From: Plantactinospora sp. BC1
Lineage (GTDB): Bacteria > Actinomycetota > Actinomycetes > Mycobacteriales > Micromonosporaceae
Length of the DNA: 64,000 nt
Assembly: GCF_003030345.1 (NCBI RefSeq)
Contig: NZ_CP028158.1
Coordinates: 4,774,001-4,838,000, forward strand
Reading direction: 5' to 3'
Shown: positions 31,381 to 42,813 of the stretch, one piece after another
Layout of the letters: each line of letters opens with the position of its first letter
Numbering within the stretch: the first letter of the stretch is position 1
Made by a program: the position numbers and the translations under genes
The notes under the pieces: model-generated
Databases searched by the model: none
What the model was told of the DNA's origin: nothing
Seen by the model: the letters and a program-made list of their open reading frames with translations, nothing else

Positions 31381-34300
31381 ATGGACCGGCGTCCGGCGAT
31401 CAAACCGGAACCCGTTCTCCGGCCGGCGGATGCCGGCCGAGACGACAGTTACGACGCGGCGATCGACGACGACGGGGCGGGCTCTCGACTCGCCTCCGGC
31501 GCGACCGGCGTGCCGGGGGCCAGCATCGACACCCTCTATGACCTGGGACTGCCTCCGGAGGCCCTCGCCGACGACGTCGAGGACGCGGATCTGGACGAGC
31601 CGGTCCCGAACGCCGAACGGCTGGTGGCCCAGGCGGTGGCGCTGGCCGGTGACGACCACGACGCGGCGACGCTGGTCGACCGGTTCTGGCGGTTCGCCCC
31701 GGACGAGGAGCTGATCGGTTTCACCCCGGCGGAGATGCTCGCCGCCGCGAAGGCGCACCGGGATCTCGCCCAGCAGCGGGTGCCGGGCGAGCTCAAGCTG
31801 CGGATCCACGAGCCGGACGAGGAGCAGCAGCACACCGTAATTGAGATAGTTACGGACGATATGCCCTTTTTGGTGGATTCGGTCACGGCGCTGCTGACCG
31901 GCCACCACCTCGACGTGCACATGCTGGTCCACCCGCTCGTGGTGGTCCGCCGCGAACCACTCGGCCGGCTGACCGAGGTCGCCGCCGACGTCGAACCGGA
32001 CGACGCGATCGACGGCGACATCGTCGAGAGCTGGATGCGGATCGAGATCGACCCGGTACGCGGCGCCGCGGACCGGGACCGATTGCGCGCCGAGTTGCAG
32101 CGGGTGCTCACCGACGTACGCGAGGCGGTGGAGGACTGGCCGAAAATGCGGCAGCGCGCCCTCTCCCTCGCCGACGAGCTGGCCGCCGCACGCACCTCGG
32201 AGAACCGCCCACCCGTACCAGAAAAGGACATCACCGACTCGGTGGAGCTGCTCCGCTGGCTGGCGCACGAGCACTTCACCTTCCTCGGCTACCGGGAGTA
32301 CCGGCTGATCCAGACCGAGCAGGGGCCGGCGTTGGAGGCGATCCTCGGCACCGGGCTGGGCATCCTGCGCCAGGACTCCACCACCCCCCGGGCGCTCTCC
32401 TCGATGACCCCCGAGGCGCACCAGAAGGTGACCGAGAAGCGGCTGCTCATCATCACCAAGGCGAACTCGCGGGCCACCGTGCACCGATCGGCCTATCTGG
32501 ACTACATCGGCTTCAAGGTCTTCAACGCCGACGGCGAGGTGGTGGGGGAGCGCCGCTTCCTCGGCCTGCTCGCCACGGCGGCGTACCGGACCAGCGTCCG
32601 CGAGCTGCCGGTGGTCCGGCGCAAGGTCGCCGAGGTGCTGGACCGGTCCGGGCTCAGCCCGCGCAGCCACTCCGGCAAGGACCTGTTGCAGATCCTGGAG
32701 ACCTATCCCCGGGACGAGCTGTTCCAGATCAAGACCGACGACCTCTACCACGCCGTCGTCGGGGTGCTGCGGATGGCGGGCCGCCGCCAGCTCCGGGTCT
32801 TCCTGCGCCGCGACGGGTACGGCCGGTTCATCTCCTGCCTGATCTACCTGCCCCGGGACCGGTTCACCACGCAGAACCGGCTGCGCATGCAGGAGATCCT
32901 GCTCCGCGAGCTGAACGGGATCGGGGTCGACTACACCACCCGGGTCACCGAGTCGATGCTGGCCCGGGTGCACTTCATCGTCCGGACCGACCCGGCCAGC
33001 CCGCCCGGCGAGGTGGACGCGGACCTGCTCGCCGAGGAACTCGCCGACGCGACCCGGCTCTGGGACGACGACTACCGGCTGGTGCTGGAACGCAAGCTCG
33101 GCGACGAGCAGGCGAAGCGGCTCTTCACCCGGTACGCCGACGCGTTCCCGGAGGGCTACAAGGACGGGCACACCCCGTACGAGGCGATGAAGGACCTCGC
33201 CAAGCTGGAGCTGCTGGAGGAGCCGGGCCAGCTCGAAATGCACATGTTCCGCAAGCAGCAGCCGGTCCGGCCGGGCGGCCCGGCCCCGGCCACCGCGGTC
33301 GAGGACGTCCGGTTCAAGGTCTACCGGTACGGCGAGCCGATGGTGCTCTCCGCGGTGCTGCCGGTGCTGCACTCCCTCGGCGTACGGGTGGTCGACGAGC
33401 ACCCGTACGAGGTGGACCGGATCGACGGCCGGATCTACCTCTACGACTTCGGTCTCGAACTGCCCGACGGCGCCCGGGACCTGGCCGAGGTACGCCCGCA
33501 CGTGGAGAACGCCTTCTCCGCCACCTGGCGGGGCGAGGCCGAGGTCGACGGCTTCAACGAGCTGGTGCTGCGCGGCGGACTCACCTGGCGGCAGGTGGTG
33601 GTGCTCCGGGCGTACGCGAAGTACCTGCGGCAGGCCGGCACGGTCTTCTCGCAGGACTACATGGAGTCCACCTTCATCGCGTACCCGCAGGTCGCCGCCT
33701 CGCTGGTGGAACTCTTCGAGGTGCGGTTCTCGCCGACACTCGGGCTGGGCGCCGAGGAGCGCAACCTGCGGAGCAAGGAACTGGTCACCTCGATCAACCA
33801 GCAGCTCGACGACGTGAGCAGTCTGGACCAGGACCGGATCCTGCGGTCGTACCTGACGCTGATCCAGGCGACCCAGCGGACCAGCTTCTACCAGCGGCGT
33901 ACCGACGGGCGCCCCAAGCCCTACGTGGCGTTCAAGCTCGACCCGCAGATGGTGCCGGACCTGCCGGAGCCCCGGCCGAAGTACGAGATCTTCGTCTACT
34001 CGCCGCGCTTCGAGGGCGTACACCTGCGGTTCGGGCCGGTGGCCCGGGGCGGCATTCGCTGGTCGGACCGGCGGGAGGACTTCCGGACCGAGGTGCTGGG
34101 CCTGGTCAAGGCGCAGATGGTGAAGAACGCCGTGATCGTGCCGGTGGGCGCCAAGGGCGGCTTCGTGCTCAAGCAGAAGCCGGGCGACCGGGACGAGGCG
34201 GTGGAGTGCTACAAGGGCTTCATCTCGGCCCTGCTGGACGTGACGGACAACCTGGTCGGCGGGCAGATCGTGCCGCCGTCCGACGTGGTCCGGCACGACG

Positions 34301-36432
34301 CCGACGACCCGTACCTGGTGGTGGCGGCGGACAAGGGCACCGCCAGCTTCTCCGACATCGCCAACGAGATCTCGGTGCGCAACGGCTTCTGGCTGGCCGA
34401 CGCGTTCGCCTCCGGCGGCTCGGCCGGCTACGACCACAAGAAGATGGGGATCACTGCCCGGGGCGCCTGGGAGTCGGTGAAGCGGCACTTCCGGGACATG
34501 GGGATCGACACCCAGACCCAGGACTTCACGGTGGTCGGCGTCGGGGACATGTCCGGTGACGTCTTCGGCAACGGGATGCTGCTCTCCGAGCACATCAAGC
34601 TGGTGGCCGCCTTCGATCACCGGCACATCTTCCTGGACCCGGATCCGGACCCGGCCGTCTCCTATGTGGAGCGTCGCCGGCTCTTCGACCAGCCGCGTTC
34701 CTCCTGGGCGGACTACAACGCCGAGCTGATCAGTTCCGGTGGCGGGATCTATCCGCGTACCGCGAAGTCGATCCCGATCAGCCCACAGGTCCGCGCGGTG
34801 CTCGACCTCGGCGCCGGCGCCGAGTCGATGTCGCCGCAGGAGCTGATGAAGGCGATCCTCTCCGCCCCGGTCGACCTGTTCTGGAACGGCGGGATCGGCA
34901 CCTACGTCAAGGCGTCGTCGGAGTCGAACGCGCAGGTCGGGGACAAGTCCAACGACGCGATCCGGGTGGACGGCCGGGACCTTCGCTGCCGGGTGGTCGG
35001 CGAGGGCGGCAACCTGGGCTTCACCCAGGTCGGCCGGATCGAGTACGCCCTCGGCGGCGGCCGGATCTTCACCGACTTCATCGACAACGCGGCCGGGGTG
35101 GACACCTCGGACCACGAGGTCAACATCAAGATCCTGCTCGGTGCGGCGGTGGCCGACGGCGAGCTGAGCGTGCCGGACCGGGACGCGCTGCTGGCCGAGA
35201 TGACCGACGAGGTCACCCAGCTCGTGCTCCGGGACAACTACGACCAGGCCCGGGCGATCGGCAACGCGCTGGCCCAGGCGGCCTCGCTGCTGCCGGTACA
35301 CCGGCGGATGATCTCCGACTTCGAGCGGGCCGGACACCTCAACCGGGAGCTGGAGGCGCTGCCGCCGGACGAGGAGCTGGCCACCCGTACCGACATCGGG
35401 CTGACCGCGCCGGAGTTCGCGGTGCTGCTCGCGTACGTCAAGATCGTGCTGGAGCGGGAGATCCTGGCCGACGGGCTGCCGGACGAGGAGTGGACCTTCG
35501 AGGTGCTCTCCAGCTATTTCCCGACTCCGCTGCGCGAGCGGTACGCCGACCGGATGCCGGAGCACCGGCTGCACCGGGACATCGTCACCACCATGCTGGT
35601 GAACGAGGCGGTGAACCGGGGCGGCATCTCCTTCATCTACCGGGTGGTGGAGGAGACCGGCGCCACCCCGGCCGACGTGATCCGGGCGTACGTGGTGGTC
35701 CGCGAGGTCTTCGGGCTGCGGGAGATCTGGGCCGACATCGAGGCGCTGGACAACCGGGTGCCGACCGAGGTGCAGACCGCCGTCTACCTGGACACCCGGC
35801 GGCTGCTCGACCGGGCGGTCCGGTGGCTGGTGACGAACCGCCGGTCCCCGATCGACGTGCCGGCCGAGACGGCCCGGCTCCGCGACGGGGTCTCCCGGCT
35901 CCTGCCCGAGCTGGGCAACCTCTTCTACGGCAGCGAGCGCGAGGCGCTGGAGGCGCACGTCGAGATGTGCGTGCGGCGCGGGCTGCCCCGGGAGCTGGCC
36001 GAGCGCTCCACCCGGCTGATGTACAGCTTCGGCCTGCTCGACGTGGTGGAGACGGCGAGGGCGACCGGGCGGGACGTCGGCGAGGTGGCGGCGGTCTACT
36101 TCGTCCTCTCCGACCGGTTCCGGGTCGACTCGCTGCTGTCGAAGATCTCGCTGCTGCCCCGGGAGGACCGCTGGCAGACGCTGGCCCGGATGGCGCTGCG
36201 CTACGACCTCTACGCCGCGCTGGCCGCGCTCACCGCCGAGGTGCTCGGCGGGACTCCCGCCGACCTGTCGCCGGACGAGCGGGTGCAGGAGTGGGAGCGG
36301 TCGAACTCGATCTCGATCGGCCGTACCCGAAAAGCGATGGGGGAGTTCGACGAGTCCCGGGCGGATCTGGCCGCGCTCTCCGTACTGCTGCGGCAGATCC
36401 GTACCCTGGTCCGGACCTCGGCGGCCGGCTGA
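31381..36432 (+). CDS. gdh: NAD-glutamate dehydrogenase, large (180 kDa) class
   Basis: 1683 residues, the size of the NAD-specific GDH class first described in Streptomyces. A long N-terminal regulatory region with ACT-like segments spans residues 1-800. The catalytic core includes [20 protein letters not shown] near residue 890, [19 protein letters not shown] with the catalytic Lys, and the NAD-binding [17 protein letters not shown] near 1055. A helical C-terminal domain runs from about 1300. It deaminates glutamate to 2-oxoglutarate with NAD. GAGGGGAG precedes ATG 31381. It is a single-gene unit, ended by a hairpin shared with the convergent sortase gene. The complementary strand is open for more than 1500 codons but has no family features. 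Confidence 0.96.
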   Translation: [1683 protein letters not shown]

Positions 36433-36532: not shown

Positions 36533-37294
36533 TCAGGGGATCCGGGTGGCGGAGACGATCACGTTGTTGCGGTAACTGCCCTTCTTGCGGTCGAAGGTGC
36601 CGCCGCAGGTCACCACCTGGAGCCGGGCGGTGTCCGCCGAACCGTAGACCAGCTCGGACGGGAAGGACGTCTTCGGGTACGACTTCACCGAGTCCACCGC
36701 GAACCGGACGACCCTGCCGTCCTGCCGGGTGACCTCGACCCGGTCGCCGCGCTTGAGCGCCCCGAGTCGGAAGAAGACCGCCGGCCCCATCGCGGCCGAG
36801 TCGACGTGCCCGACCACGACCGCGTTGCCGAACTCGCCGGGGCTGGCCCCCAGCCGGTACCAGCCGGCGAGCTGGGCCTGCTTGAGCGGGGGCACCTGCA
36901 CGGTCCCGTCGTCGTTCACGCCGACCGACATGATCTTCGCGTTCACCTTGATCTTCGGGATGGTGATCCGGACCGGTTCCGAGCGGGGCAATTCGGCCGG
37001 CCGGGACGGCTCGACGACCGGGCTGCCGGCGGCCGGGCTGCCCGGCGTGGGCGACGGCGCTACCGCCTGCGGGGTCCACTGGGCCTCCGGGGTCTCCTCG
37101 GGCTGCGGCGGCGCCTCGCCGGTCTCGATCTCGGCGGGCTGCGGCGGCTGCGCCGGGGGCGGGTTCAGGCCGGCGGTGAGCAGGGCGGTGCCGCCGAGTG
37201 CGAGCAGGACGACCAGGGCGGAGCCGGCGGCACGCCACGGTTTCCCGTGCCGGCCGCCGGCGCGCCTGGTCGACACCTCAGGCGGGTGAGCCAT
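36533..37294 (-). CDS. Class F sortase, cassette 1
   Basis: 253 residues. A short cytoplasmic tail, one membrane span (GSALVVLLALGGTALLTAGL, residues 24-43) and a Pro-rich linker to about residue 105 precede the sortase beta-barrel VRITIPKIKVNAKIMSVGV. The catalytic triad is readable: His163 in VVGHVDS, Cys230 in VVTCGG and Arg242 in GSYRNNVIV. Class F enzymes of actinobacteria anchor proteins to the wall, usually at LPXTG-like signals. The gene start overlaps the 3' end of the upstream surface-protein gene by 17 bp, so that protein is the likely substrate. The same arrangement recurs at 38275-40126. Confidence 0.93.
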   Translation of the reverse strand: MAHPPEVSTRRAGGRHGKPWRAAGSALVVLLALGGTALLTAGLNPPPAQPPQPAEIETGEAPPQPEETPEAQWTPQAVAPSPTPGSPAAGSPVVEPSRPAELPRSEPVRITIPKIKVNAKIMSVGVNDDGTVQVPPLKQAQLAGWYRLGASPGEFGNAVVVGHVDSAAMGPAVFFRLGALKRGDRVEVTRQDGRVVRFAVDSVKSYPKTSFPSELVYGSADTARLQVVTCGGTFDRKKGSYRNNVIVSATRIP

Positions 37295-38024
37295 CGGTAC
37301 GACGCCGGCGGATCATCAGGAAGCCACCGATCGCGGCCGCGCCCAGCATGCCCGCGCCGGCTGCCGCCCGACCCGAGTCCGTGCTGGCGGCGCCGCCGTC
37401 ACCACCGGGTACGGAACCCCGGGGCAGTACGACGATCTTGCCCGTCGCCTCGCACGCGCCCCAGGCCCGGTAGTGCCCCGGCTTGGTCTTGTACGGCACC
37501 TTCGCCCAGGCCCAGTAGACGGCCTCGTCGCCGTAGGCGGCCGCCTGGCCGCCCTGACCGCCGTCGGGCTGCCCGTCGCCCGTCCCCGGCTGGCCGCCCT
37601 CCTCGGGCAGCGGTGGCTGCCCACCGTCCGGCGGCAGCGGGGGCTGACCACCGTTCGGCGGAAGCGGCGGCTGCTCGCCGTTCGGCGGGACCGGCGGCTG
37701 ACCGTCGTCGTCCGGCTGACCGCCGTCCGCCGGTGGGCGCTGCCGCTCCGGTACTCGAACGCCGTCCTCCTCGACGGGCTTGAGCCAGAGCTTGCCGGTG
37801 ACCTTCGACGACACCCAGGCTTTCTCCACCCGGTGCTCGCACTTCAGGATGACCTTGAACTTGTGTCCCGGCTTCACCCCCTTCGGCACGGTGTGGATGT
37901 GGCCGTTGTTCTCCCGCTCGTGTGGGGCGTCGTCCGCCAGAGCGGTTCCGGGCGCGCAGATCAGCAGGGACGCGGCACCGAGACCGGCGACCGCCACCAC
38001 CTTCCCCAGCAACTTCCTACTCAT
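37278..38024 (-). CDS. Secreted surface protein, proposed sortase substrate 1
   Basis: 248 residues; no known whole-protein family recognised. There is a signal peptide with cleavage after ALA30. The first conserved half has VKPGHKFKVILKC (Cys62) then AWVSSKVTGKLWLKP. Four 9-residue Pro-rich repeats (QPPLPPNGG type) occupy residues 109-144. The second conserved half has VPYKTKPGHYRAWGAC (Cys191). The C-terminus is VPGGDGGAAS, a hydrophobic span (AAAGAGMLGAAAIGGFLMI) and RRRRTD, the layout of a cell-wall sorting signal but without LPXTG. The two Cys may form a disulfide joining the halves in an Ig-like fold. AAGGAG lies 12 nt before ATG 38024. Its paralogue is at 39023-40126. Confidence 0.85.
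   Translation of the reverse strand: MSRKLLGKVVAVAGLGAASLLICAPGTALADDAPHERENNGHIHTVPKGVKPGHKFKVILKCEHRVEKAWVSSKVTGKLWLKPVEEDGVRVPERQRPPADGGQPDDDGQPPVPPNGEQPPLPPNGGQPPLPPDGGQPPLPEEGGQPGTGDGQPDGGQGGQAAAYGDEAVYWAWAKVPYKTKPGHYRAWGACEATGKIVVLPRGSVPGGDGGAASTDSGRAAAGAGMLGAAAIGGFLMIRRRRTDGSPA
37593..37700 (-). repeat. Four 27-bp in-frame repeats in surface protein 1
   Basis: 108 bp encode QPPVPPNGE, QPPLPPNGG, QPPLPPDGG and QPPLPEEGG. They form a stiff, Pro-rich spacer between the two conserved halves of the protein. Copy number could vary between strains. Confidence 0.85.
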
Positions 38025-38079
38025 GACTCGTAGTCACTCCTTCCCCGTTGGTTGTGCTCGACGGCGAGCCGAGCCAGAA

Positions 38080-38101
38080 CCGACGCTAGCTAGTTTGTGA
38101 G
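38080..38101 (-). promoter_or_regulatory. Box shared by both sortase cassettes, copy 1
   Basis: This 22-bp element matches 40179-40200 at 16 positions, including TTTGTGAG at its right end and TAGC in the middle. Each copy ends 74-77 bp upstream of the surface-protein start codon. It is probably part of a common promoter or operator, so the cassettes are likely expressed under the same control. Confidence 0.5.
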
Positions 38102-38215
38102 GAGATGTCGGGATTATGGGTGTTCCTTCGGAAACATCGCCTGTGAGTGGTAGAGAGCTCTTCACATCGGCCCTGTCCGGATCGGGTCCCGCCGCCGGCC
38201 CGGGCAGACGGCGAC

Positions 38216-38243
38216 GGGGGACAGCGGCGTACCGCTGTCCCCC
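38216..38243 (-). terminator. Hairpin terminator of sortase cassette 2
   Basis: GGGGGACAGCGG and CCGCTGTCCCCC pair perfectly over 12 bp around a CGTA tetraloop, 32 bp past the stop of the second sortase gene. It separates the two cassettes. Confidence 0.85.
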
Positions 38244-38274
38244 GTACCGCCCGGCCGGGCGCCCGGCTACCCGG

Positions 38275-39039
38275 CTACCCGGCGAGCCGGGCGAAGGCGA
38301 TGACGTTGTCCGGATAGGAGCCGGTCCGCTCGTCGAAGTCCCCGCCACAGGTCACCAGGCGCAGCCCCGGCGCCTCCGTCGGGCCGTAGACGAGTTCGGT
38401 GGGAAACTCGCTCTTCGGGTACGACTTCACGCCCTCCACCGCGAAGGTGGCCAGGCTGCCGTCCTCGCGGATCACCTGGATGCTGTCGCCGGGCAGCAGG
38501 GCGCCGAGCCGGAAGAAGACCGCCGGCCCGATCTCCTTCGAGTCGACGTGGCCGACGATCACGGAGTTGCCCGGCTCACCCGGGGTCGGACCCGGCCGGT
38601 ACCAGCCGGCCAGCTCCGCCTTGGCCAACGGCGGCACCTGCACCATGCCCTCCGGGGTAAGCCCCACGGGCATGATGGTGGCGTTCACCCCGATCTTCGG
38701 GATCGTGATCTTGATCGGTTCCGACCTGGTCAGTACCCGTGCGGCGGGCACCGGTGCCGGTGTCGCATCGGGTCCGCCCTCCGGCGCCGTGGTGGGTGCC
38801 GGTGCGGCAGGCCCGAGATCGCTCCCGGTGTCACCGGCAGCCGACCGGTCCGGGTCGTGCGATGCGGCACCGGCGCTCGGCTGCGGCGGCGCGACCGGGT
38901 CCGGCGCGTTGAGTGCGGCCCCGACCAGGCCGGCGCCGACCAGGGCCAGCAGTGCGACGAGGACGGTGCCGGCGATCCGCCACGGTCTCCCGTGACGGCC
39001 GCCGGCACCGCTCGCCGTCGCGTCAGACGGCCGACTCAT
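38275..39039 (-). CDS. Class F sortase, cassette 2, catalytic Arg replaced
   Basis: 254 residues, clearly paralogous to the sortase at 36533. It has an equivalent membrane span (IAGTVLVALLALVGAGLVGA), a Pro/Ala linker and a barrel starting IKITIPKIGVNATIMPVGL. His164 (IVGHVDS) and Cys231 (LVTCGG) are present. Where the first sortase has SYRNNVIV, this one reads SYPDNVIA, so the position of the catalytic Arg is Pro243. The next Arg is Arg251, eight residues on. The enzyme may be inactive, use another Arg or have altered specificity. The start overlaps the 3' end of surface protein 2 by 17 bp, the same overlap as in cassette 1. Confidence 0.9.
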   Translation of the reverse strand: MSRPSDATASGAGGRHGRPWRIAGTVLVALLALVGAGLVGAALNAPDPVAPPQPSAGAASHDPDRSAAGDTGSDLGPAAPAPTTAPEGGPDATPAPVPAARVLTRSEPIKITIPKIGVNATIMPVGLTPEGMVQVPPLAKAELAGWYRPGPTPGEPGNSVIVGHVDSKEIGPAVFFRLGALLPGDSIQVIREDGSLATFAVEGVKSYPKSEFPTELVYGPTEAPGLRLVTCGGDFDERTGSYPDNVIAFARLAG

Positions 39040-40126
39040 CGGTGCGGCGCTGCCGCATCAGCACCAACCCGCCGAGCCCGGCCAACCCGAGCATCCCGAC
39101 CCCGGCGACCGCGAGATTGTCGCTGCTGCCGGAGGTCGCCCCGCCGTCACCGCCGTCGACCCAGCCCTTCGGCAGGATGATCAGCTCACCCTCGCCGCAG
39201 GAGCCCTTGAGTTCGTACGACCCCGGCTTGGCGTCCCACGGGATGGTGACGCTGGTCCAGTACTCGTGGCCGGCCTTCTTCTCCGTCCAGCCGCCCTTGC
39301 TCTCCTCGGCCTTCTTGCTCTCCTCGGCCTTCTTGCTCTCTTCCCAGCCGCCCTTGCTCTGCTCGGCCTTCTCCCAGCCGTGCTTGCTCTCCTCGGCCTT
39401 CCTGTCCTCTTCCCAGCCGTGCCCGCCGTCATCCAGGGCCATTCCGCCGGTACCGCCCGGTGCCGCCGGTTGCCCGCCGGGCGGCTGGTAGCCCCCGGGC
39501 TGCTGAGGCTGGCCGCTGGTCGAGGGCGAGGGTGCCGGTACCGCGTCGGCCGACGGGCCGGGTGCCGCGGGCGCCTCCTCGGCGGTCGACGGGGCGGATT
39601 CGGCGCCGTACGCCCCGTTCTCCGCCGGGGCCGACCCGTGCTTCTCCTTGTAGCGGCGGTACTCCTGGTATTCCTGGTACTCCTTGTACTTCAGGAACTC
39701 CTGGTACTCGCGCTCCTTCTTGTAGTCCTCCCCGCCCTGGTACGCCTCGCCGCCGCTGGAGTGGCCGCCGGACTCCTCGGGCTTCCGGTCGGCCTTGTGG
39801 TCGTCCTTCTGCTCGCCCTTGTGGTCGTCCTTCTGATCGGCCTTGTAGTCGTCCTTGTGGTCCTTCGGGGCGAGGTCCACCTTTCCGGTGACCTTCGACC
39901 ACAGCCACGCGTGCTGTTGCGCCTCGGGGCAGACCTCGATGAGGTCCACCTTCTCCCCGGGCTTCGCGGCGTGTGGTTTCGCGTACGCCCGGCCCGAGCC
40001 GTCCCGCTGGTGCCCCTCGGGGTGGTAGCCGCCGTCCGCGAGCGCGGCCGAGGGGGAGAAAACGAGTAGAGAAGCGCCGCCGAGCGCGGCTCCTGCGATC
40101 ATCCTGCCGAGGAACTTCTTGGACAT
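39023..40126 (-). CDS. Secreted surface protein, proposed sortase substrate 2
   Basis: 367 residues, paralogous to the protein at 37278. The signal peptide is MSKKFLGRMIAGAALGGASL onward, cleaved after ALA30. A first half has AAKPGEKVDLIEVC (Cys66) and AWLWSKVTGKVDLAP. Then come charged low-complexity blocks (KDDHK repeats at 88-113, a Tyr/Glu-rich EYQEYQEYRRYKE block at 137-161, a Pro-rich part, WEE/KAEESK repeats at 238-281). A second half has IPWDAKPGSYELKGSC (Cys310). The end is WVDGGDGGATS, a hydrophobic span and RQRRTD. ATG 40126 is preferred over ATG 40138 because its leader aligns with that of surface protein 1. No LPXTG is present. Confidence 0.83.
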   Translation of the reverse strand: MSKKFLGRMIAGAALGGASLLVFSPSAALADGGYHPEGHQRDGSGRAYAKPHAAKPGEKVDLIEVCPEAQQHAWLWSKVTGKVDLAPKDHKDDYKADQKDDHKGEQKDDHKADRKPEESGGHSSGGEAYQGGEDYKKEREYQEFLKYKEYQEYQEYRRYKEKHGSAPAENGAYGAESAPSTAEEAPAAPGPSADAVPAPSPSTSGQPQQPGGYQPPGGQPAAPGGTGGMALDDGGHGWEEDRKAEESKHGWEKAEQSKGGWEESKKAEESKKAEESKGGWTEKKAGHEYWTSVTIPWDAKPGSYELKGSCGEGELIILPKGWVDGGDGGATSGSSDNLAVAGVGMLGLAGLGGLVLMRQRRTDESAV

Positions 40127-40812: not shown

Positions 40813-41061
40813 TGCAAGAATTCATCCACTGTGCTGGGGGAGCCACACCGCGCAGCGGACGTCGAGGGCAGCCGGTTCGCCGGACGGCGTCGTCACGGTC
40901 GCTGACCCGAGCGGCCGGCACCACCACCAGTTCCGCCCGTCCGGGTCGGGCATACCGCAGTCCCCCATGGCGTGCACGGACGTACCCACCTGGCGCGTCG
41001 CCGTGTGACCGCCGCGCCGGTTCCGCCTAACGTGACCGGCTGGCTCAAGGAGATCAGTGGC

Positions 41062-42813
41062 ATGAATTTACCGAGTAGATTGTCCGTCCGGCAGAAAGCC
41101 GTCGCGGTGGCCGGTGCGAGCGCTTTGGTCGCCGCCGGTCTGGTCACCATCCCGGCGTCCGTGGCACAGGCGGCACCCGGGTGCAGCGTCACCTACAGTG
41201 CCAACCAGTGGCAGGGTGGTTTCAGCGCCAACATCACCATCCGGAACGTCGGCGACGCGATCAACGGCTGGACCCTCCGGTTCAGCTTCGCGGACGCGGG
41301 ACAGCGGGTGACCCAGGGCTGGTCGGCCAACTGGACGCAGTCCGGCACCCAGGTGACCGCCACGAACGTGTCGTGGAACGGCAACCTCGCCACCGGCGCC
41401 TCCACCGGCATCGGCTTCAACGGTTCGTTCAGCGGCAGCAACCCGGCGCCGACGTCCTTCAGCATCAACGGGACGACCTGCAACGGCACCGCGCCGACCA
41501 CCCCGCCCACCGGCGGACCGACGGGCAACCCGACCAACCCGCCGACCACGAACCCGACCAGCAACCCCGCGGCCCGGGTGGACAACCCGTACGCGGGCGC
41601 CCGTGGTTACGTGAACCCGGAGTGGAAGGCCAAGGCGGAGAGCGTCTCCGGCGGCAACCGGATCTCCAGCAACCCGACCGGTGTCTGGCTGGACCGGATC
41701 GCCGCGATCGAGGGCACCCCGGACAGCAGCTCGAACGGCTCGATGGGCCTGCGGGACCACCTGGACGAGGCGCTGGCGCAGGGCGCCGGCTACATCCAGC
41801 TCGTCATCTACAACCTGCCCGGCCGGGACTGTGCGGCGCTCGCCTCCAACGGTGAGCTGAAGGCGGACGAGCTGCCCAAGTACAAGACGCAGTACATCGA
41901 CCCGATCGCCGCGATCATGGGTGACAGCAAGTACAGCAGCCTGCGGATCATCGCGATCATCGAGATCGACTCGCTGCCGAACCTGGTCACCAACGTGGCG
42001 CCGCGGGAGACCGCGACGGCGCAGTGCGACACGATGAAGGCCAACGGCAACTACGTCAAGGGTGTCGGCTACGCCCTGGCCAAGCTCGGTGCGGTCCCGA
42101 ACGTCTACAACTACATCGACGCCGGCCACCACGGCTGGATCGGGTGGGACGACAACTTCCGGGCCTCCGCGCAGATCTTCGCCGAGGCCGCCCGCGCCGA
42201 GGGCAGCACCCAGGCCAACGTGCACGGCTTCATCGCCAACACCGCCAACTACTCGGCCACCGTCGAGCCCTACCTCAACGTGACCGAGCAGAACCGGCTC
42301 TCGAAGTGGATCGACTACAACCGGTACGTGGACGAGCAGCGCTTCGCCCAGGCACTCCGTACCGAGCTGGTCTCGCAGGGCTTCAGCTCCAGCATCGGCA
42401 TGCTGATCGACACCTCGCGTAACGGTTGGGGCGGCTCGGCCCGGCCCACCGGCCCGAGGACCTCGGGCACCGTCGACGAGCAGGTGGACGGCTCCCGGAT
42501 CGACCGCCGGATCCACCTCGGCAACTGGTGCAACCAGAGCGGTGCCGGCATCGGTGAGCGGCCGCGGTCCGCCCCGGCCAGCGGGATCGACGCGTACGTC
42601 TGGATCAAGCCCCCGGGCGAGTCGGACGGCTCCAGCACCCAGATCGACAACGACGAGGGCAAGGGCTTCGACCGGATGTGCGACCCGACCTACACCGGTA
42701 ACCCGCGCAACAACAACAACATGAGCGGCGCGCTCTCCGGTGCCCCGATCTCGGGTGCCTGGTTCCCGGCGCAGCTCACCCAGCTGATGCAGAACGCCTA
42801 CCCGGCGCTCTGA
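41062..42813 (+). CDS. Secreted cellulase: CBM2 plus GH6 catalytic domain
   Basis: 583 residues. The signal peptide is cleaved after AQA near residue 37. A family 2 carbohydrate-binding module spans about 38-139 (GCSVTYSANQWQGGFSANIT, paired Cys, exposed Trp residues). A Pro/Thr/Asn-rich linker (PPTGGPTGNPTNPPTTNPTS) leads to a glycoside hydrolase family 6 domain. GH6 signatures are VIYNLPGRDCAALASNGEL and IIEIDSLPNLV, with the likely acid Asp303, then DAGHHGWIGW. It hydrolyses beta-1,4-glucan with inversion, as endoglucanase or cellobiohydrolase; long loop segments near the C-terminus (GAGIGERPRSAPASGIDAY) are compatible with an exo-acting enzyme. AAGGAGA precedes ATG 41062. It is a single-gene unit with a CebR box and a strong terminator. 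Confidence 0.95.
   Translation: MNLPSRLSVRQKAVAVAGASALVAAGLVTIPASVAQAAPGCSVTYSANQWQGGFSANITIRNVGDAINGWTLRFSFADAGQRVTQGWSANWTQSGTQVTATNVSWNGNLATGASTGIGFNGSFSGSNPAPTSFSINGTTCNGTAPTTPPTGGPTGNPTNPPTTNPTSNPAARVDNPYAGARGYVNPEWKAKAESVSGGNRISSNPTGVWLDRIAAIEGTPDSSSNGSMGLRDHLDEALAQGAGYIQLVIYNLPGRDCAALASNGELKADELPKYKTQYIDPIAAIMGDSKYSSLRIIAIIEIDSLPNLVTNVAPRETATAQCDTMKANGNYVKGVGYALAKLGAVPNVYNYIDAGHHGWIGWDDNFRASAQIFAEAARAEGSTQANVHGFIANTANYSATVEPYLNVTEQNRLSKWIDYNRYVDEQRFAQALRTELVSQGFSSSIGMLIDTSRNGWGGSARPTGPRTSGTVDEQVDGSRIDRRIHLGNWCNQSGAGIGERPRSAPASGIDAYVWIKPPGESDGSSTQIDNDEGKGFDRMCDPTYTGNPRNNNNMSGALSGAPISGAWFPAQLTQLMQNAYPAL

Follow-up and report, generated by a model that had tools for sequence, protein, structure and literature searches.

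Tandem pairs of class F sortases and secreted surface proteins in Plantactinospora, and a sorting signal predicted for class F sortases

Two tandem gene pairs

A 64,000-nucleotide stretch of the genome of Plantactinospora sp. BC1 (contig NZ_CP028158.1, positions 4,774,001 to 4,838,000; here called the window, in whose own numbering positions are given) contains two gene pairs in tandem on the reverse strand, each composed of a gene for a secreted protein followed by a gene for a class F sortase. We refer to the sortases as S1 and S2 and to their partner proteins as protein P1 and protein P2; the labels P4, P3, P1, P1′ and P3′ are also used for subsites of the sorting signal. Protein P1 (37278..38024, 248 amino acids (aa)) is a secreted Ig-like surface protein and the predicted substrate of S1 (36533..37294, 253 aa), and protein P2 (39023..40126, 367 aa), of the same type, is the predicted substrate of S2 (38275..39039, 254 aa). 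Both sortases pass the curated cut-off (166 bits) of the class F sortase model NF033748, with 204.1 bits for S1 and 200.8 bits for S2; S1 also scores 79.9 bits with PF04203, and modelling gives the sortase β-barrel fold expected of the class. The end of each partner gene, including its stop codon, overlaps the start of the sortase gene by 17 bp (37278..37294 and 39023..39039). Open reading frame coordinates and NF033748 scores therefore agree with an earlier reading of the window (the original prediction), which had described two such tandem pairs with this overlap in each.

Judged by eye, proteins P1 and P2 both begin with what looks like a signal peptide; at the C terminus each has a hydrophobic span and an Arg-rich tail. 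As originally noted, both translations have GGDGGA before the span and lack LPXTG. No L[PA]xTG occurs in either sequence, and the pentapeptide described by the LPXTG model TIGR01167 is absent; protein P1 is unlisted with that model up to E 1, and protein P2 scores 15.5 bits (16 with its neighbours, which the tool counts as over the 15.9 cut-off), from model position 6 on. A Pfam scan of the two proteins gave no match up to E 1. Among NCBIfam models, protein P1 matches NF058571 (GVDTG_CTERM) alone, and protein P2 matches NF058571 and, over the span, PVV_CTERM (16.5 bits, cut-off 27). With hmmscan the NF058571 scores are 23.9 bits (P1) and 24.0 bits (P2) for a curated cut-off of 29; in a six-frame search they are 28.0 bits and 28.9 bits, the latter rising to 29.3 with neighbours and so counted as over. 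The last ~50 residues of both proteins have the layout of that model, namely motif, span and basic tail; the Thr at position 4 of its pentapeptide is missing, the corresponding letters being SVPGG in protein P1 and WVDGG in protein P2.

The two proteins had been described as sharing a core of two halves with two Cys residues, and AlphaFold2 modelling of protein P1 with 34 relatives accounts for this as one seven-strand Ig-like sandwich split by a disordered insert. In the model, 71 residues reach a predicted local distance difference test score (pLDDT) of at least 90, with strands at residues 41-46, 55-62, 70-73 and 77-80 and, after the disorder, at 168-175, 183-189 and 194-199. The Pro/Gly/Gln-rich insert (~residues 85-165; 37530..37772, reverse strand), between core strands 4 and 5, has low pLDDT and no strands. 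In protein P2 the alignment places a low-complexity insert at ~residues 89-285 (39272..39862, reverse strand), composed of Lys/Asp, Tyr/Glu and Glu/Ser/Lys blocks that make up the direct-repeat families D3-D5. When the two core halves were joined by hand as a query, hhalign matched them to a profile of ectodomains from other class F neighbours (GPATG-type) with a probability of 97.4 and E 1.4e-11.

Conservation of the motif and its register

Orthologues were collected from named genomes as the best 80 of 421 relatives, with 85 class F domains, from Micromonospora, Salinispora, Plantactinospora, Verrucosispora and one further Micromonosporaceae strain; 5 of the 80 loci carry two class F sortases. 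An anchored partner lies upstream of 81 of the 85 domains, and the other four have 13-111 bp of upstream sequence. All 81 testable pairs retain V-x-[GA]-G-[DE]-G-G, span and basic tail (GGDGG in 77, AGDGG in three, GGEGG in one), and the motif thus withstands the check on its conservation beside class F sortases. The overlap, which had been taken to suggest dedicated pairs, is not peculiar to the two in the window: an in-frame ATG at -17 is present in 60 of the 81 named orthologues and in 17/19 sortases with the same signal type in the family draw described below, against 2/122 others there. It looks to have been inherited by the clade, of which the overlap between protein P1 and S1 is typical.

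Of the 81 named partners 63 could be delimited, and together with the alignment and the model they support hypervariable inserts within a conserved core. In 57 of the 63 the insert is 55-535 aa long. The remaining six (L223, L227, L231, L257, L263 and L285) have lost a recognisable Ig-like core and carry low-complexity DRKD/DGKH chains instead, and they still keep the signal peptide, the first Cys and the motif. The V, G, G and G of the motif are kept in 63/63 despite the variable inserts.

The signal reads PRGSVPGGDGG in protein P1 and PKGWVDGGDGG in protein P2. Its core lies in protein P1 at residues 201-212 (PRGSVPGGDGGA; 37389..37424, reverse strand), followed by the span and an RRRR tail, and in protein P2 at residues 319-330 (PKGWVDGGDGGA; 39137..39172, reverse strand), followed by the span and an RQRR tail; the latter core is kept in orthologues, and the GVDTG_CTERM match in protein P2 begins at residue 319. 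Alignment of protein P1 with its relatives leaves P201, G203, V205, G208, G210 and G211 invariant. The motif had originally been given as GGDGGA(A/T)S, of which the GGDGG part is retained in orthologues. The residue that follows it is M, A, V, I, L or T among the 63 named orthologues, and upstream of it are conserved a Pro, then G/W/S/H/P, then a Val (63/63). With variable residues at its end and conserved ones ahead of it, GGDGGA(A/T)S as a whole is rejected as the motif and its register has been moved.

Linkage of signal and sortase in the family and the phylum

A family draw of 81 genomes provided 150 class F domains of at least 100 aa, taken from the best matches listed plus the five of the host genome. 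Partners were sought upstream on the same strand by span and basic tail, without use of the motif, and were found for 141 of the 150. The nine remaining domains fall into three groups of three: those truncated at a contig end, those whose motif is recognisable by eye (L146, together with L046 and L206, which lack an in-frame span), and those, taken up below, that show none. Class F sortases over the cut-off are present in 69/81 family genomes and in 33/246 genomes of a phylum draw, from which 28 new loci were read, one per genome. A partner was recognised at 25 of these 28 (span and tail by script, motif by eye), with signal forms including SVKTGVGGA and GVATGAGGT.

Random-start motif finding on the 141 family partners returned nine positions, P-[ST]-x-[GAW]-[PV]-x-[TGA]-G-[GFD], with a mean of 16.4 bits, whereas shuffled tails gave 5.4-5.7 bits; a seeded run appends G-[GS]. 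Position P3 is Pro in 99 and Val in 35 (P or V in 134), position P1 is Thr in 96, Gly in 26, Ala in 18 and Ser in one, and Gly occupies P1′ in 140 and P3′ in 138. The commonest pentapeptide, GPATG, is LPXTG with the Leu replaced. The signal of class F partners can thus be written more widely as P-x-x-[GAW]-[PV]-x-[TAG]-G-x-G-[GS]. With this wider signal in both draws, a motif unique to the clade of S1 and S2 is ruled out: the suggestion of a possible new sorting signal holds as regards a conserved C-terminal motif, and the motif itself is one variant of the class F signal.

The association also holds in the reverse direction. In 29/29 family genomes the best GVDTG_CTERM locus adjoins a class F sortase (within 1.5 kb), the weakest sortase evidence being E 1.3e-35 with a five-sequence model with which the host class E sortase reaches 6.9e-7. 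In 12 family genomes chosen because they have class F, a tail model built here matched upstream (same strand, within 2.5 kb) of 56 of the 59 class F sortases over the cut-off, and a tail was seen by eye for the other three, one of which (L348) has no in-frame span; the expected co-occurrence is therefore found both ways. The tail model caught 0/8 sub-cut-off relatives in these 12 genomes. Six of these relatives were viewed by eye, and five have a fitting tail (four of the P-x-G-V-P-S-G-x-G-G type); relative L352 has the deviating tail GVPGGSAG. Twelve family genomes have no class F sortase over the cut-off, and the ten of them that also lack a strong sub-cut-off match served as the negative set. 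Not one of their 45 tail-model matches reaches into model positions 1-5; the five closest, which the judgement of class F type covers, start at positions 6-9 and are LPxTG-like (LPVSG, LPVTG, LPTTG, MPVTG and LPRTG), and the other 40 start at position 10 or later.

The class F-type tail is also found on other ectodomains, including DUF4397, a multicopper oxidase and one that matches CHRD weakly, under the Pfam cut-off; of the 9 partners scanned, 7 gave no Pfam match up to E 0.01. Because the same tail occurs on unrelated ectodomains and is kept where the core has been lost, it seems from these sequences to be maintained independently of what it displays. As a separate observation, the partners at L199 and at several of the loci L166-L188 end in GGVDTGxGG, the form behind the name of the NCBI model; the L199 partner is a DUF4397 protein, and the others look alike by eye.

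Phylogenetic coupling and age of the tandem

On the sortase tree, the residue at position P1 of the linked signal changes 18 times compared with 37-45 times when labels are shuffled, Pro or Val at P3 changes 9 times compared with 26-35, and the residue after the Gly changes 12 times compared with 42-54. The combination of Gly at position P1 and Val at P3 is characteristic of one region of the tree, to which both S1 and S2 belong. The exceptions within it are two members, neither of them a window gene, with Ala or with no readable partner; the sortase of a further GVPGG tail (L187) was not part of the tree.

Within the genus, S1 clusters with orthologues of its own and so does S2 (Shimodaira-Hasegawa-like approximate likelihood ratio test support of 99 and 98), and the tandem therefore arose before these species diverged. 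Its two units are distinct paralogous pairs that lie next to each other within the genus; a recent duplication within this strain is ruled out.

Active site and complement of the host genome

The catalytic His and Cys are present in 178/178 class F domains examined, and Asn stands at the canonical Arg place in 177/178 (H164, C231 and N245 in S2), a replacement already described for actinobacterial class F sortases (PMC6998099). An Arg four residues before the Cys occurs in 171/178 (R227 in S2), and in four sub-cut-off relatives (L353-L356) it stands six residues before. The Cys-4 Arg is possibly a relocated active-site Arg.

The host genome (8.33 Mb, a single contig) encodes five class F sortases over the cut-off, and a protein with a GVDTG-like tail lies directly upstream of all five; the fifth, with a GVDAG tail, reaches only E 1.7 with the NCBI model against 6.3e-7 with the tail model built here. 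A single class E sortase passes its cut-off as well, and six L[PA]xTG proteins are scattered over the genome. Two sorting systems seem to coexist in this host, since the classical class E candidates are unlinked while each class F enzyme has a linked candidate of its own. The genes flanking the two pairs read by eye, without a family search, as a large NAD-type glutamate dehydrogenase (31381-36432, forward strand) and a cellulose-binding glycoside hydrolase (40972-42813, forward strand), and inspection by eye gave no apparent functional tie between either of them and the sortase pairs.

Dedicated enzyme-substrate pairs and alternative readings

We consider it quite probable that S1 and S2 and their upstream neighbours are dedicated enzyme-substrate pairs, each a self-contained surface-display unit. 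This agrees with the original prediction, and linkage, conservation and phylogenetic coupling support it as the best reading. In such a unit the product of the first gene would be exported, with a disordered and fast-evolving insert in its Ig-like core, and the second gene, whose translation is probably coupled to that of the first through the overlap, would encode a membrane-bound sortase of class F. The substrate would stall at its C-terminal span, and the sortase would bind P-x-x-[G/W/S]-V-[D/P]-G-G-D-G-G just outside the membrane. From the register with LPXT↓G, we infer that the sortase Cys would attack the carbonyl that precedes the invariant Gly (V-x-G↓G-D-G-G), and the released protein would then be passed to a cell-wall amino group.

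Several observations weigh against this reading. Phylogenetic coupling supports dedicated pairs but without more does not show recognition, because close linkage alone would give co-inheritance. No upstream anchored partner was found in the family draw for the class F sortases L162, L131 and L045, which may be true exceptions or misassemblies, and 3/28 phylum loci gave no partner by script. Conversely, among the 12 genomes chosen for class F, a clear class F-type tail (GGAHTGDGG) stands with no listed class F sortase near it at L346 (G048:C1:2956000-2962000), on a 712-aa protein that by eye is a multicopper oxidase and, judging from its tail, a candidate unlinked class F substrate; weak tail matches at L364, L365 and L370 (GPAGDGS, LGTGEGG and APTAGEGA) likewise have no listed class F sortase nearby. 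With L346, and these three as weak candidates, the pairing is not strictly exclusive. Class F enzymes lack the canonical catalytic Arg (Asn in 177/178), and their activity could therefore differ. The natural signals of classes A-E listed in the parts consulted of one account all retain Thr (PMC5148588), where proteins P1 and P2 have Gly. Finally, the sections seen of a study of Actinoplanes missouriensis report no phenotypic change on deletion of all four class F sortases (PMC13251363).

This last result would also fit a glycine-rich stretch that is simply a flexible juxtamembrane linker, with proteins P1 and P2 remaining membrane-anchored and the sortase having another job or target; the region is indeed Gly-rich and modelled with low confidence. 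We regard this as unlikely, since positions are fixed rather than composition alone, as the motif information far above that of shuffled tails and the near-invariant Gly at two places with P or V at a third among the 141 partners attest, and since in the ten genomes without class F over the cut-off the beginning of the tail model is covered by no match, the five closest ones being LPxTG-like. It is still harder to credit that the housekeeping class E sortase processes proteins P1 and P2, leaving the linked class F enzyme a later step or a role elsewhere. The host does have one class E sortase, and class E is the one with a phenotype in A. missouriensis according to the same partly consulted study (PMC13251363), but the six host L[PA]xTG proteins are its natural candidates, and the class F signal, which is linked to class F genes, differs from theirs at P4 and in this clade also at P3 and P1.

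An alternative closer to dedicated pairing, and one to which we give a modest though larger chance than to either of these, is that class F sortases join their partners to a target other than peptidoglycan (a self-polymer, a glycolipid or another protein) or only release them by hydrolysis. The Asn at the canonical Arg place, noted also in the sections seen of PMC6998099, is in its favour, and no class F acceptor turned up in the portions of the literature examined.

Returning to dedicated pairs, a bolder form of the proposal is that the Plantactinospora/Micromonospora/Salinispora clade of class F sortases cleaves between two Gly residues (V-x-G↓G-[DE]-G-G), without Thr and with its Arg moved to Cys-4, and that class F more broadly is an actinobacterial display system of one enzyme and one linked substrate. 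This we put forward tentatively, at slightly less than even chances. If class F enzymes read this motif, the clade of S1 and S2 departs from the natural signals that keep Thr.

Significance

In the parts consulted of a 2020 account, class F sortases are stated to have no designated function (PMC6998099), and our literature search found no paper combining GVDTG with sortase, or sortase with DUF4397. For A. missouriensis, such neighbours have already been proposed in print as possible substrates of class F sortases (PMC13251363); what is new here is the general class F signal and the sortase clade whose linked signals have Gly where listed natural signals have Thr. The signal points to likely class F substrates genome by genome and yields a peptide for testing with S2, KGWVDGGDGGAT. 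A Thr-free sortase specificity, if it exists, could serve protein ligation, and if our reading is true, a class F display system has been overlooked by LPXTG scans.

Comparison with known systems

The closest relative of the signal is the NCBIfam model NF058571, which has the same register, span and basic tail and to which proteins P1 and P2 align over positions 2-44 of 44. They differ from it in scoring below its cut-off with hmmscan and in lacking the Thr of GVDTG, and that cut-off also misses 8/10 other class F partners tested. In sequence terms, the signal of proteins P1 and P2 would be the 'GVDTG sorting domain' of NCBIfam with Gly in the place of Thr; the idea of such a non-LPXTG signal was already present at NCBI, since NF058571 models part of it.

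Among sortases studied in other organisms, Corynebacterium diphtheriae SrtF (5UUS) reaches only E 0.046 with the class F profile used here, and for the class F sortase of Cutibacterium acnes the passages seen of one paper give LPXTG as the signal (PMC13257024). The nearest likeness by description is in A. missouriensis, where the 2026 study, as far as consulted, places a secreted protein with span and basic tail beside a class F sortase in the pairs srtF1/AMIS_11010 and srtF4/AMIS_36440 and suggests AMIS_11010 and AMIS_36440 as possible class F substrates (PMC13251363). No pentapeptide was recognised in them in the sections seen, and the two neighbours were left aside for want of one; the signal described here bears on both.

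With the LPXTG and LAXTG signals of classes A and E, the class F signal has in common a pentapeptide, a span and a basic tail, and most of the 141 family partners also share Pro at P3 and Thr at position P1, with Gly at P1′ in nearly all. It differs in having Gly, Ala or Trp in place of Leu, in the GxG[GS] that follows, in its linkage to its own sortase and, in the clade of S1 and S2, in having Gly in place of Thr.

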